DNA from: Ahniella affigens
GTDB taxonomy: Bacteria > Pseudomonadota > Gammaproteobacteria > Xanthomonadales > Ahniellaceae
Length of the DNA stretch: 64,000 bases
Reading direction: 5' to 3'
Assembly: GCF_003015185.1 (NCBI RefSeq)
Contig: NZ_CP027860.1
Span: forward strand, 4,144,501 to 4,208,500
The notes under the pieces are model-generated. The model was not told the origin of the DNA and did no database searches. It saw nothing but the letters and a program-made list of their open reading frames with translations. A program made the translations under genes and the position numbers. Numbering within the stretch: the first letter of the stretch is position 1; each line of letters begins with the position of its first letter. Positions 5,850-55,712 of the stretch are shown here, in pieces.

Positions 5850-6115
5850 ATGGCTTTTTTGTAGGAGCGGCTTTAGCCGCGAATGGGACTTGCCGCAAGA
5901 TTGGTTCGGGCCTGAAGGCCCTCCTACAAAAAGCGAATGGGACTGGCCGCAAGATTGGTTCGGGCCTGAAGGCCCTCCCACAAAAGAGCGAATGGCTCTG
6001 GCCGCAAGATTGGTTCGGGCCTGAAGGCCCTCCTACAAAAAAGGCGAACAGGGCTTGCCGCAAGAATGGCTCGGGCATGAAGGCCCTCCCACAAAAAGCG
6101 ACGGGCCTTGCCGCC
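5850..6115. repeat. Tandem REP-like palindromic array
   Basis: A single unit GTAGGAGCGGCTTTAGCCGC (about 5871-5890) is followed by four units of 54-56 bp starting at 5880, 5934, 5989 and 6045, plus a partial one at 6099. Each unit holds the palindrome GGGCCTGAAGGCCC (unit 4 reads GGGCATGAAGGCCC), a CTCCTACAAAA or CTCCCACAAAA tail and a TTGCCGCAAGATTGG-type spacer. The first motif resembles the REP sequences common in pseudomonads and xanthomonads. The array lies directly downstream of the phosphorylase gene ending at 6125, where REPs can stabilise mRNA 3' ends. Long ORFs across it are repeat artefacts. Confidence 0.85.
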
Positions 6116-51782: not shown

Positions 51783-52973
51783 TTACTTGATGATCTTGGC
51801 GACGACGCCGGCACCGACGGTGCGGCCACCTTCACGGATCGCAAAGCGCAGGCCTTCGTCCATCGCGACCGGCACAATCAGCTGCACCTTGATCTTGATG
51901 TTGTCGCCCGGCATCACCATCTCGACGCCTTCCGGCAGTTCGCACGAACCGGTCACGTCTGTCGTACGGAAGTAGAACTGCGGACGGTAGCCCTTGAAGA
52001 ACGGCGTATGACGGCCACCCTCGTCCTTCGACAGCACGTAGATCTCGGCTTCGAAGTCCGTGTGCGGCGTGATCGAACCTGGCTTGCACAGCACCTGGCC
52101 GCGCTCCACGTCATCACGCTTCGTGCCGCGCAGCAGCAGACCGGCGTTGTCGCCTGCCTGACCCTGGTCGAGCAACTTGCGGAACATTTCCACGCCCGTG
52201 ACCGTCGTCTTCTGCGTCGGACGGATACCGACGATTTCGATTTCGTCGCCCACCTTGATGATGCCGCGCTCAATACGACCCGTCACCACCGTGCCGCGAC
52301 CCGAGATCGAGAACACGTCTTCGACCGGCATCAGGAACGGCTTGTCGACGTCACGCTTCGGCTCCGGAATGTACGTATCCAGCGCGTCCACCAGCTTGAT
52401 GATCGCCGGCACGCCGATTTCGCTCTGGTCGCCTTCCAGCGCCTTCAGGGCCGAACCCTTGATGATCGGGGTGTCGTCGCCTGGGAAGTTGTACTTCGAC
52501 AGCAGTTCACGGACTTCCATTTCGACCAGCTCGAGCAGCTCGGCGTCGTCGACCATGTCAGCCTTGTTCATGAACACCACGATGTACGGCACACCGACCT
52601 GGCGAGCCAGCAGGATGTGCTCACGCGTCTGCGGCATCGGGCCGTCAGCAGCCGAGCACACCAGAATCGCGCCGTCCATCTGCGCCGCACCCGTGATCAT
52701 GTTCTTCACGTAGTCGGCGTGGCCTGGGCAGTCCACGTGCGCGTAGTGACGCGTCGGGCTTTCGTACTCAACGTGCGCCGTCGAGATCGTAATACCGCGC
52801 GCCTTCTCTTCCGGCGCTGCGTCGATCTGATCGTACGCCTTGAATTCGCCACCGAAACGCTCTGCGCCAACCTTCGTCAGCGCCGCCGTCAGCGTCGTCT
52901 TGCCGTGGTCAACGTGACCGATCGTGCCGACGTTCACGTGCGGCTTGGTGCGCTCGAATTTACCCTTTGCCAT
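51783..52973 (-). CDS. tuf: Elongation factor Tu (copy in the tRNA operon)
   Basis: 396 residues, protein identical to the copy at 34982-36172. The nucleotide sequences agree over the last 860 bases of the gene without a single difference, and differ at about six synonymous positions near the 5' end. Co-transcribed with tRNA-Tyr, tRNA-Gly and tRNA-Thr, the tufB arrangement of E. coli. P-loop [10 protein letters not shown] and NKADMV as in the other copy. Confidence 0.98.
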
Positions 52974-53012
52974 GACGGACTCCGAACATATTCAAGGTGA
53001 TAAGTAAGAAAA

Positions 53013-53088
53013 TGGTGCTCACGACTGGAATCGAACCAGCGACCTCCTCCTTACCAAGGAGGTGCTCTACCGACTGAGCTACGTGAGC
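53013..53088 (-). tRNA. tRNA-Thr (GGT)
   Basis: 76 bases with encoded CCA. Acceptor stem GCTCACG/CGTGAGC, anticodon loop TTGGTAA (anticodon GGT), T loop GGTTCGATTCC. Lies 40 bp before tuf. Confidence 0.97.
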
Positions 53089-53105
53089 ACAGAAACCTGC
53101 GAAAA

Positions 53106-53146
53106 CAAAGCACTGGAGACTGCTAAACCAGGGCTTCAGTGCTTTG
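53106..53146 (-). other. Stem-loop between tRNA-Gly and tRNA-Thr
   Basis: CAAAGCACTG and CAGTGCTTTG form a perfect 10-bp stem around a 21-base loop in the 121-bp spacer, 18 bases upstream of tRNA-Thr in the transcript. Probably a processing signal in the polycistronic tRNA transcript. Confidence 0.5.
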
Positions 53147-53209
53147 CTTTCCGACTGCTGATGCTGCGACTTCTAAATTGTTGCCCAACTATTCGGCCCT
53201 GCTACTCAA

Positions 53210-53283
<74 letters not shown>

Positions 53284-53346
53284 GATTTTGAAGCTTCTTA
53301 CCGCAAAATCTTAAGTACGCAAATTCAACACTGGGCAATATCGAAC

Positions 53347-53644
53347 TTGGTGGAGGGAGGTGGATGACTCCAGGCATTCTGCCTGTCGCCCTCCGGGCCA
53401 TCCTTCGGATGTTCCGGCCTGCTACGCAGTCCGGTCGAACCGAATGTGTTTGCCGGTGGTTCGAATCCACCTTCCAAACACTGATACAAATTTTGTTGGT
53501 GGAGGGAGGTGGATGACTCCAGGCATTCTGCCTGTCGCCCTCCGGGCCATCCTTCGGATGTTCCGGCCTGCTACGCAGTCCGGTCGAACCGAATGTGTTT
53601 GCCGGTGGTTCGAATCCACCTTCCAAACACTGATACAAATTTTG
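53347..53644 (-). repeat. Two identical 149-bp tandem repeats behind tRNA-Tyr, each with the tRNA 3' end
   Basis: Units 53347-53495 and 53496-53644 are identical by eye over all 149 bases. In transcript order the array follows tRNA-Tyr directly. Each unit ends with ATCCACCTCCCTCCACCA, the last 18 bases of tRNA-Tyr including CCA. Each also contains GGTGGATTCGAACCACC, a hairpin equal to the reverse complement of the tRNA's T arm. The architecture matches the tandem repeats behind tyrT in E. coli (rtT RNA), with a shorter unit. The unit length is not a multiple of three, so open frames across it change from unit to unit. Confidence 0.85.
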
Positions 53645-53645
53645 T

Positions 53646-53731
53646 TGGTGGAGGGAGGTGGATTCGAACCACCGAAGTCGTGCGACAGCTGATTTACAGT
53701 CAGCCCCCTTTGGCCACTTGGGTATCCCTCC
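53646..53731 (-). tRNA. tRNA-Tyr (GTA)
   Basis: 86 bases, class II with long variable arm, encoded CCA. Acceptor stem GGAGGGA/TCCCTCC, anticodon loop TGTAAA region with anticodon GTA, T arm GGTGGTTCGAATCCACC. First gene of the tRNA-tuf operon, directly behind a strong promoter; its 3' end is duplicated in the repeats that follow. Confidence 0.97.
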
Positions 53732-53743
53732 ACGGAGCCGCGC

Positions 53744-53772
53744 ATTCTGACGAGCCCCCTACGGAGTGTCAA
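53744..53772 (-). promoter_or_regulatory. Strong promoter of the tRNA-Tyr/Gly/Thr-tuf operon
   Basis: On the minus strand TTGACA (53772-53767) and CAGAAT (53749-53744) are spaced by exactly 17 bp. A GC-rich discriminator (GCGCGG) follows, as in stringently controlled stable-RNA promoters. The start site falls a few bases before tRNA-Tyr. Confidence 0.85.
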
Positions 53773-53816
53773 GCGCTTGCCGTGAAATTTTCCGATTTTT
53801 GGCTCGGATTTTGGTC

Positions 53817-55712
53817 TCAGGCGGCGACCGGACGCACACCCTCGGCGGCAAATCGTTGCTGGATCGCCGCCAACACCCCAGGACCATCCAGACCCACGCT
53901 CGCGAGCATGTCCTCGCGCGACATGTGCTCCAGATAGCTGTCTGGCAAACCGAGGTTCAGCACCGGCACGGTCAGGCCGTGCGCCTGCAAAAGCTCGAGC
54001 ACGGCACTGCCAGCACCGCCCATGATGGCGTTATCTTCCAGCGTGACGAGTCCGGCGTGACTCCGCGCGACCTCCAGAATCAATTCGGCATCGAGCGGCT
54101 TGATGAAACGCATGTTGACCACGGTCGCACCCAGCTTGTCGCCAACTTCCTGCGCGACCGGCAACAACGCACCAAAGGCAAGCAACGCCAGGCCGCGACC
54201 TTTTCGACGCACTTCGGCCTTGCCAATCGGCAAGGTCGTGAGCTCGGACTGGATCGCCACGCCGGTGCCACCGCCACGCGGATATCGCACGGCCGCGGGA
54301 CCGGCGAAGTGAAATCCGGTACTCAGCATCTGACGGCATTCGTTCTCGTCTGCCGGCGCCATAATCACCATGTTCGGGATACAGCGCAGAAAACTCAAAT
54401 CGAAGCTACCGGCATGGGTTGCGCCATCTGGGCCAACAACCCCACCACGATCGATCGCAAACAGCACGTCGAGATTCTGTAGCGCCACGTCGTGGATCAG
54501 CTGATCATAGGCGCGCTGCAGAAAACTTGAGTAGATCGCGACCACGGGCTTGCCGCCCTCACATGCCATGCCGGCCGCGAGTGTCACCGCATGCTGTTCG
54601 GCAATAGCAACGTCAAAGTAGCGCTCGGGGAACTCCTTTGAAAACCGCACCAAGCCCGACCCCTCGCGCATCGCGGGCGTAATGCCCAGGAGCCGCGAAT
54701 CCGCTGCGGCCATATCGCAGAGCCAATCGCCAAACACTTGCGTGTAGCTCGGCTTGCCGCCACCGGACTTTTGCTTCATTCCAACCGCCGGATCAAACGG
54801 CGTGACGGCGTGGTAGCCGATCTGATCTTCCTCCGCCAGTTCGTAGCCCTTGCCCTTGGTGGTAATCACGTGCAGCAGCTGCGGGCCCTTCAGCGTCTTC
54901 AGCGTCTTCAAGACCTGCAGCAACGCCGGCAGATCATGGCCGTCAATCGGACCGGAGTAGTGAAAACCCATTTCCTCAAACAGCGTTGAGGGCACGAACA
55001 TCCCCTTGGCATGCTCCTCCCAACGCTTCAGGAACCGCGCGAGCGGATTGCCGCGACCGACCAGCCGCTTGCCCCCTTCGCGGAGTGCGTTCATGGTGTC
55101 GCTGGCCATCATCCGGCCCAGCATCTTGGTCAGGCCGCCGACGTTTTCCGAAATCGACATCCGATTGTCGTTCAGGATCACCAGCATATCCGGGTGCGGG
55201 TCCATGCCGCCGGCGTGATTCAGCGCTTCGTACGCCATACCCGCCGTCATCGCGCCGTCGCCAATCACGGCCACCACGCGCCGCGGATCGTTGGCACGGG
55301 CATTCGCAATAGCCATGCCGAGGGCAGCCGAAATCGACGTGGAGGAGTGCCCCACGCCAAAGGCGTCAAACGGGCTCTCTTCGCGGCGCGGGAAAGGCGC
55401 CAAACCGCCCTTCTGCTTGATCGTCCGAATGTGATCGCGGCGACCGGTCAGAATCTTGTGTGGGTAACACTGATGGCCGACATCCCAAACCAGACGGTCA
55501 CTGGGCGTGTCGTACAGATAATGCAATGCCACGGTCAGCTCGACCACGCCCAGGCCGGCACCGAAGTGCCCGCCCACCTGCGCGACCTCTTGAATCAGAT
55601 AGTCGCGTAGTTCCTGCGCCACCACCGGAAGATCGGATTCGGCCAGCAGTTTGAGCTCTGCTGGCGAACCAATCTTGGACAGGAACGGATATCTTTCAGC
55701 GGAAATAGTCAT
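53817..55712 (-). CDS. dxs: 1-deoxy-D-xylulose-5-phosphate synthase
   Basis: 631 residues from ATG at 55712 ([17 protein letters not shown]); 23 upstream codons in frame lack family match. Thiamine diphosphate-binding parts are [34 protein letters not shown] and [13 protein letters not shown]; the transketolase-type pyrimidine domain contains [19 protein letters not shown]. First enzyme of the MEP pathway, joining pyruvate and glyceraldehyde-3-phosphate. It ends 45 bp before the tRNA-Tyr promoter and shares direction with it. Confidence 0.97.

Follow-up and report, generated by a model that had tools for sequence, protein, structure and literature searches.

The rtT RNA of Escherichia coli, reportedly known since 1991, has mostly been described from one tRNA operon. 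In this tyrT locus, RtT (RF00391) occurs as tandem units that lie behind tRNA-Tyr and end with the tRNA 3' end, including CCA. According to the respective reports, rtT is a variable tandem repeat of 175 bp in Salmonella (PMC2658671), a tRNA-Tyr copy and RtT are lost in one E. coli strain (PMC12584984), RtT RNA is up-regulated in the cold in Thioalkalivibrio (PMC8092127), and enterobacterial attenuator candidates similar to rtT belong to BIMEs (PMC2965389). Both the RtT family itself and, from PMC4986893, its proximity to non-Tyr tRNAs are already known: Arrc20 and Arrc21 of Actinobacillus pleuropneumoniae are Rfam RtT members that lie upstream of tRNA-Asn and tRNA-Lys genes and give Northern signals.

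An arrangement like that of E. coli tyrT is found in the window, i.e., the whole 64,000-nt stretch of Ahniella affigens DNA that was analyzed here. Downstream of tRNA-Tyr, the minus strand bears two direct repeats of 149 nt each, 100% identical according to Tandem Repeats Finder and a repeat finder (Table 1), and the 3' end of tRNA-Tyr plus one base makes up a third, incomplete copy (53645-53663). Both units are closed by ATCCACCTCCCTCCACCA, the final 18 nt of tRNA-Tyr, and each harbors a 22-nt inverted copy of the T-arm with 95% complementarity, as located by an inverted-repeat search. A preliminary description, made from the sequence alone, had reported two identical 149-bp units, unit ends that reproduce the last 18 tRNA bases with CCA and a reverse-complement T-arm copy per unit, and all three features are confirmed (units at 53347-53495 and 53496-53644; tails with 18/18 identity). 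The identity of the units, like the variable copy number in other genomes, agrees with its proposal that they were recently duplicated or are subject to gene conversion. The 178-bp unit length that it gave for E. coli agrees with the spacing of 178 and 179 nt in an annotated E. coli locus (L035), and the window units differ from the E. coli units (178-179 nt) in being 149 nt long. They also differ in lying inside a tRNA-Tyr/Gly/Thr/tuf cluster and in scoring under the Rfam cut-off. The position between tRNA-Tyr and tRNA-Gly, which the preliminary description had set apart from E. coli, is real in this genome but not special to it, as it recurs in relatives.

The minus strand carries, in order, a promoter-like site that ends 12 nt upstream of tRNA-Tyr, tRNA-Tyr, units 1 and 2, tRNA-Gly, tRNA-Thr and an ORF that reads as EF-Tu. 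A consensus scan of the minus strand of 52900-54000, including the tRNA-Tyr spacer, detected no terminator-like site. Given this promoter-like site and the lack of a terminator-like site in the scan, the units are likely to be co-transcribed with tRNA-Tyr. Elsewhere in the window (5879-6114), a 54-nt unit with a GGGCCTGAAGGCCC hairpin is repeated in tandem in about four copies.

Table 1. Coordinates of the features of the tRNA-Tyr repeat locus in the window
Feature	Position	Strand	Basis
Sigma-70-like promoter candidate, TTGACA-17-CAGAAT	53744..53772	-	consensus scan only, 10/12 matches; shuffles average 0.4
tRNA-Tyr(GTA), host gene; last 18 nt = 53663-53646	53646..53731	-	ARAGORN and Rfam tRNA
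Repeat unit 1, 149 nt, transcribed first	53496..53644	-	identical direct repeat; RtT 39.1 bits
Unit 1 inverted T-arm copy AGGTGGATTCGAACC, 5' strand of predicted closing helix P1 and of P2	53607..53621	-	inverted repeats, folds
Unit 1 GGTTCGA, T-loop copy, 3' strand of predicted P2	53584..53590	-	sequence
Unit 1 core, 69 nt, four predicted hairpins	53515..53583	-	fold
Unit 1 tail with CCA, copy of the last 18 nt of tRNA-Tyr	53497..53514	-	18/18 identical
Repeat unit 2, 149 nt	53347..53495	-	100% identical to unit 1; RtT 39.1 bits
Unit 2 core	53366..53434	-	identical to unit 1 core
Unit 2 tail with CCA	53348..53365	-	repeat comparison
tRNA-Gly(TCC), next cluster gene	53210..53283	-	tRNA search
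tRNA-Thr(GGT), next after tRNA-Gly	53013..53088	-	tRNA search
EF-Tu (tuf) ORF, end of tRNA-tuf cluster, 396 aa	51783..52973	-	named by eye from sequence

Are the window units genuine relatives of E. coli rtT? The Rfam covariance search that the preliminary description had proposed returned a match to both units from end to end of the RtT model (RF00391, positions 1-130; cmscan), but its score of 39.1 bits lies below the curated cut-off of 45. Scanned within 5.5 kb, the match had an E-value of 4.3e-5, and within 401 bases, one of 3.2e-6. The cut-off is passed by three relatives that carry the element at the same tRNA-Tyr/Gly site (L007, 60.7 bits; L010, 50.2; L014, 46.8). We also built a model, R1, from 42 units that included no E. 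coli copy (none with the E. coli tRNA-Tyr tail). In L035, R1 scored 68-70 bits on each of the three annotated RtT sRNAs, and it scored 63-70 bits on four annotated copies of a second E. coli locus (L036), in each case with an E-value of at most 3e-12 and over model positions 1-128. Window unit 1, itself one of the 42 members of R1, scored 87.9 bits at 53497-53627. Because a model made without E. coli copies strongly finds E. coli RtT, the window units, as judged by these model matches, are RtT-family relatives despite their sub-cut-off Rfam score, and the rtT likeness asserted in the preliminary description is supported by both searches. HPnc0260 and mir-family Rfam matches near the locus were below cut-off and were taken as chance.

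The element is by no means confined to tRNA-Tyr. We placed 120 RtT matches from 80 genomes, mostly one per array and not every listed place. A tRNA was present upstream within the fetched piece in 103 of them, in 89 cases within 60 nt of the match, and 17 had no upstream tRNA in the piece. The hosts of the 103 were tRNA-Ser (56), Gln (21), Tyr (15), Arg (5), Glu (4) and Val (1), with one unassigned, and R1 added Asp, Lys, Pro and Met. The preliminary description had reported the repeats behind tRNA-Tyr; the element is not a tRNA-Tyr feature, with 88 of the 103 matches preceded by another tRNA. The unit tail was identical to the last 18 nt of the host tRNA (18/18) in 76 of the 103 and reached at least 16/18 in 88, leaving 15 with tails under 16/18. 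In the window genome, R1 located further arrays behind tRNA-Ser(gct), tRNA-Gln(ctg), tRNA-Ser(cga), where cores are interrupted, and tmRNA (Rfam tmRNA, 192.7 bits).

Several loci deviate from this simple layout. The split cores at some tRNA-Ser loci of the window genome contain an insert of about 200 bp, by eye (L212:683-942 and 1109-1368). L212 has two copies with 99% identity and L210 (minus strand) has similar ones; the insert appears by eye to be an insertion inside the RtT element that was multiplied along with it. The interval from the tRNA-Ser(cga) array to tmRNA also holds a distinct tandem repeat with a 105-nt unit (L212:1477-1791; three copies, the other two being 93% and 63% identical to the first). 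When ten RtT matches without a tRNA were inspected in longer stretches, six were still tRNA-less, and four of these six lie behind a displaced tRNA 3' end. In the other two (L255:638-774 and L257:3833-3947), the core sits in the T-loop of what we take to be the 3' half of a tRNA-Lys; no complete tRNA was found near either half, and the two genomes belong to different families. In a predicted viral contig (IMG/VR; L178:9960-10760), a displaced tRNA-Ser 3' half is followed by four RtT units. This single viral-contig match, showing one pattern, does not argue for phage carriage, as it looks like the edge of an element integrated into a tRNA, with the contig ending in host DNA.

Comparison of the units reveals a common anatomy: a spacer, an inverted copy of the host T-arm and part of the acceptor strand, a loop, GGTTCGA, the core and a tail that runs from ATCC to CCA. 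Because the core is flanked by TTCGA and ATCC, it lies between two T-loop halves, and the alignments thus place it where the T-loop would be. In one genome (G230), the stretch from GGTTCGAC to AGTAATCC is almost the same in the tRNA-Gln and tRNA-Val units; the sequences on its two sides differ, each unit there matching its own tRNA (tails 18/18 for Gln and 17/18 for Val). In the window genome, the tRNA-Ser(gct) and tmRNA cores agree at 68 of 82 aligned positions. The former is flanked by GGTTCGA and ATCCCTC and the latter by GGGTTCA and ATTCCCGC, i.e., the T-loop type of tmRNA itself; the tails of the tmRNA units match over approximately 8 nt and then diverge.

The arms usually match the local host gene, as judged by complementarity. 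Across 85 units, the inverted strand scored 9.35 on average against its own tail and 6.83 (sd 0.15) against permuted tails, with none of 2000 permutations as good; the own-tail score exceeded the mean for foreign tails in 76 units and not in nine. This set excludes 32 of the 120 matches, which had no upstream tRNA or a tail below 16/18, and three more without a recognizable GGTTCGA. The 3' ends of tRNAs with a tail copy (n=126) were complementary to the next 160 nt (9.19 vs 7.17 shuffled), tRNAs without a tail copy (n=123) lacked such downstream complementarity (7.18 vs 7.16), and ten in-between tRNAs gave 7.90 vs 6.74; tRNAs without CCA or with less than 160 nt downstream were excluded from this control. 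At tail position 6, all four Watson-Crick orientations were found.

The predicted closing helix P1 covaries across relatives. In an alignment of 42 units (A2), covariation reached 0.379, compared with 0.157 when shuffled (0/500) and at most 0.145 when slid; 25 of the 35 pairs changed on both sides somewhere, and P2 was 99% paired across the 42 units. P1 pairing and covariation in A2 are inflated, as units were picked for P1 pairs (77 of the 85 had at least 9 of 14 P1 positions paired, and the 42 with a mostly regular linker were used) and the structure was read by eye from the same sequences. The own-tail permutation, the tail-position orientations and the downstream-complementarity control were not chosen for P1, and core helices 3 and 5, which lie outside the selection of A2, vary on both sides at all 12 pairs. 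A first alignment (A1), in which RNAalifold found only nine pairs, was replaced by trimmed units and a hand-named structure. Among departures from Watson-Crick pairing, read on the transcript strand, G-U is preferred to A-C (odds ratio 2.5, p 0.006, in rows that are not independent and from G+C-rich genomes): opposite a tail T there are 59 G and 32 others, and opposite a tail C, 29 A and 40 others. The commonest linker is GAGAACC (22 of the 85 units), and the exact T-arm reverse complement, TCGAACC, which the window units carry, occurs in 13. A tandem GA motif is mentioned for RtT in one report (PMC7657543); if this means GA ahead of GAACC opposite GA behind GGTTC, the window unit, which has TC there, lacks it, and 22 of the 85 units carry it as GAGAACC.

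Secondary structure predictions for the window locus give a less uniform picture. A single unit (150 nt) folds at -59.1 kcal/mol (z -3.57; 0/200 shuffles as good). When the 131-nt piece matched by R1 was folded freely, P1, P2 and four hairpins were predicted, with P1 pair probabilities of 0.82-0.98. In the full 150-nt unit, another fold, with the inverted T-arm paired internally, is favored by 1.1 kcal/mol (-59.1 vs -58.0 with P1 and P2 held), and P1 has a probability of 0.32-0.48. In the free fold of tRNA-Tyr together with both units, inverted strand 1 pairs with the tRNA 3' end (0.77) over its own tail (0.13), and inverted strand 2 pairs with the tail of unit 1 (0.48) and not its own (0.00). 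When the cloverleaf was constrained, no P1 formed, and each inverted strand paired with the other one (0.99). In these models, P1 is therefore backed by covariation in relatives and not by equilibrium prediction for the window locus.

How does the element reach different host genes? Core likeness had a median of 54 between units of the same genome behind tRNAs for different amino acids (17 pairs), and was 42 for the same genome and amino acid (5 pairs) and 26 for the same tRNA in different genomes (514 pairs). On average, a core thus resembles those behind other host genes of its own genome more closely than those of other genomes. Unlike pairs within a genome also exist (e.g. Ser/Gln of G413, 25), and the tRNA-Tyr core of the window is not close to the other cores of its genome (45/93, 49/81 and 45/87 positions). 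At L017:1400-1800, a full-length tRNA-Ser(gct) duplicate with an RtT core in its T-loop precedes an intact copy. This locus provides no proof of direct insertion into a working tRNA, given that a deletion between T-arms could give the same picture. A Y1 (RAYT) transposase was rejected as the mover, since it does not track R1 matches: among 200 genomes of the order, it occurs in 71 of 145 with and 23 of 55 without R1 matches (Fisher p 0.43; one R1-positive genome counted as negative).

In many relatives, the tRNA and the unit are separated by a terminator-like hairpin, from which the inverted copy extends back across CCA and the acceptor strand; units behind such a hairpin may be little transcribed. 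When the host 3' end, spacer and inverted strand were folded alone, at least eight pairs formed with the sequence after CCA in 74 of 76 first units, and at least six of the first 11 nt after CCA paired further downstream in 42 of 76. In the window genome, the arms of tRNA-Ser(cga), tRNA-Ser(gct) and tRNA-Gln(ctg) match at 28/28, 28/29 and 28/29 positions, respectively, through the terminator-like hairpin. Such long arms favor a copying process at the hairpin, which may proceed by template switching or self-primed synthesis.

The distribution of the element is broad and patchy. At an E-value of 1e-3, matches to the Rfam RtT model occurred in 3 of 10 family genomes, in 37 of the 200 genomes for the order and in 52 of the 276 for the class; its cut-off was passed in 10 of the 200 and 18 of the 276. 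At the same E-value and with weak matches included, R1 matched 146 of the 200 genomes and 63 of 73 sampled genera of the order, and at 1e-4, it matched 54 of 299 genomes of the phylum, with E-values that are rough owing to a short calibration. These counts suggest that the current Rfam RtT model misses many copies. R1 may also be catching REP/BIME-like hairpin arrays, and several of the phylum matches cover only model positions ~14-111. For the best-scoring R1 matches of the order, 40 further loci were fetched; a tRNA lies upstream in 35, and the tail agrees at 15/18 or more in 25 of those 35. All 19 R1 loci from the phylum survey have a tRNA upstream, with a tail of 18/18 in 14, and nine of the 19 belong to a single family (f190) outside the class.

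Unit number, which the preliminary description had suggested comparing between genomes, is variable. A pattern with the tRNA-Tyr tail of the window was found in 24 stretches of named genomes with one to three matches each (by the pattern alone, neighbors aside), including Luteimonas, Pseudoxanthomonas, Dokdonella, Rhodanobacter, Xanthomonas and Thermomonas as well as Thalassotalea and a Porticoccaceae bin. This range hints at a place of the window within the Xanthomonadales/Lysobacterales. Within one genus (g14), one core was matched in 25 of 30 genomes (13 of 15 near-complete ones) at one to six places each, with many short partial matches. An rtT unit is present in 4655 of 5426 E. coli genomes at one to nine places each (median 2). 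In E. coli ES4 (L036:1501-2414), one RtT unit lies between both tRNA-Tyr genes and three lie behind them, reflecting array rearrangement within E. coli.

On balance, we propose that the window units belong to a co-transcribed, structured RNA element of the RtT family that passes from one tRNA 3' end to another, has arms fitted to each host and varies in copy number, a reading that we hold with moderate confidence. The inverted copy would pair with its own tail (P1) and GAACC with GGTTC (P2), yielding a multi-branched RNA with a 3' CCA. The element would spread between tRNA 3' ends, and tandem arrays would grow by recombination through the repeated 18-mer. Its tolerance may stem from the inverted strand and the tail pairing with one another while the tRNA folds and matures first, although the equilibrium fold of the locus does not show this. 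Processing of tRNA 3' ends at CCA could then free the unit as a small RNA. Any putative benefit to the cell would be secondary in this genome; a 1991 E. coli report is said to describe a stringent-response effect of rtT.

The repeats might instead be a DNA parasite or by-product, in which the arms are complementary by mutation and not by selection and the RNA is inert. Quasi-palindrome correction (template switching at hairpins) would adapt the inverted strand to the tail, and the tail would be kept in line with the tRNA by gene conversion. The 28-29-nt arms that run through a terminator-like hairpin at three loci of the window genome are in keeping with such a process, as are the downstream partners predicted for six or more of the 11 nt that follow CCA (42 of 76 first units), the patchy presence (37 of 200 genomes by Rfam, 146 of 200 by R1), the variable tandem number and a predicted fold of the whole window locus that does not favor P1. 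Because of these locus folds, we hold the structured RNA proposal less firmly and give more weight to a DNA-level origin, which we nonetheless regard as rather unlikely. The strand-specific preference for G-U over A-C speaks against it, albeit in non-independent rows from G+C-rich genomes, the commonest linker (GAGAACC, 22/85) is not the exact T-arm reverse complement (TCGAACC, 13/85), and core hairpins unrelated to the tRNA covary too.

Two further explanations account for less of the evidence. The unit could be a switch of tRNA 3' processing or transcription, in which the 3' end of a read-through tRNA is tied up by the inverted strand, alone or together with a terminator hairpin, and is set free again by the tail copy, so that the unit would set the amount of tRNA and tuf mRNA. 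Mutually exclusive pairings are indeed predicted for the same inverted strand, the host 3' end forms at least eight pairs with downstream sequence in 74 of 76 first units (when only spacer and inverted strand are included), and the window unit sits between genes of a tRNA-tuf cluster. A needed control of essential tRNAs would not be expected to be as patchy as the element is in the order and within one genus (25/30 genomes; 13/15 near-complete), the host tRNAs are many and unrelated, and the consensus scan found no terminator in the window spacer, which together make a switch improbable. That the repeats are no more than degenerate tandem copies of a tRNA 3' end, unrelated to rtT, is scarcely credible: the missed Rfam cut-off (39.1 of 45 bits) would be in line with it, but the RtT match runs end to end, the core hairpins are conserved, and the idea is contradicted by covariation in 42 units and by the R1 matches on E. 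coli RtT.

The proposed RNA element could be part of something larger. RtT would then be a class of mobile, non-autonomous RNA elements whose target is the T-loop of tRNA-like genes, including tmRNA, and which copy the host 3' end forwards and backwards on arrival, for example by self-primed reverse transcription from the host's terminator hairpin. We consider this extension doubtful. If it is true, every insertion regenerates an intact tRNA with arms tailored to the host, and E. coli rtT RNA is one visible member of a family found in most genera of the order and beyond. Irrespective of the route of spread, the clear architecture, with a core in the T-loop and arms that follow the host, makes three questions testable: how an element can pass from one tRNA gene to another and leave both functional, whether tRNA-tail mimics with a CCA end are competitors for tRNA enzymes, and why tRNA arrays expand and contract.

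A search of the openly licensed literature did not turn up RtT as a tRNA-general, host-tailored family, nor any account of its place in the T-loop, of arms that match the host, of spread within a genome or of a tmRNA host. Among known systems, integrative elements that use tRNA 3' ends as att sites resemble RtT in their direct tRNA 3'-end repeat, which here spans 18 nt from T-loop to CCA. Unlike these elements, the 149-nt unit is too short for an integrase gene, and we know of no att site of which an inverted host-matching arm is part. REP/BIME sequences and RAYT-mobilized REPINs are, like RtT, short hairpin-rich repeats dispersed in gammaproteobacteria, whereas the examined RtT copies are tied to tRNA 3' ends, have host-specific arms and show no co-occurrence with Y1. 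Arrc20 and Arrc21 are likewise Rfam RtT members that adjoin tRNA genes, in their case other than that for Tyr, and differ in neighbors and lineage; the passages on them mention no tail, inverted strand or T-loop position (PMC4986893). In comparison with E. coli tyrT, where the host is tRNA-Tyr, the wider RtT family is hosted by many tRNAs and tmRNA. With matches in 63 of 73 sampled genera of the order by R1, verified loci outside the class and hosts from ten tRNA amino-acid families plus tmRNA, our results suggest that RtT is a widespread element.
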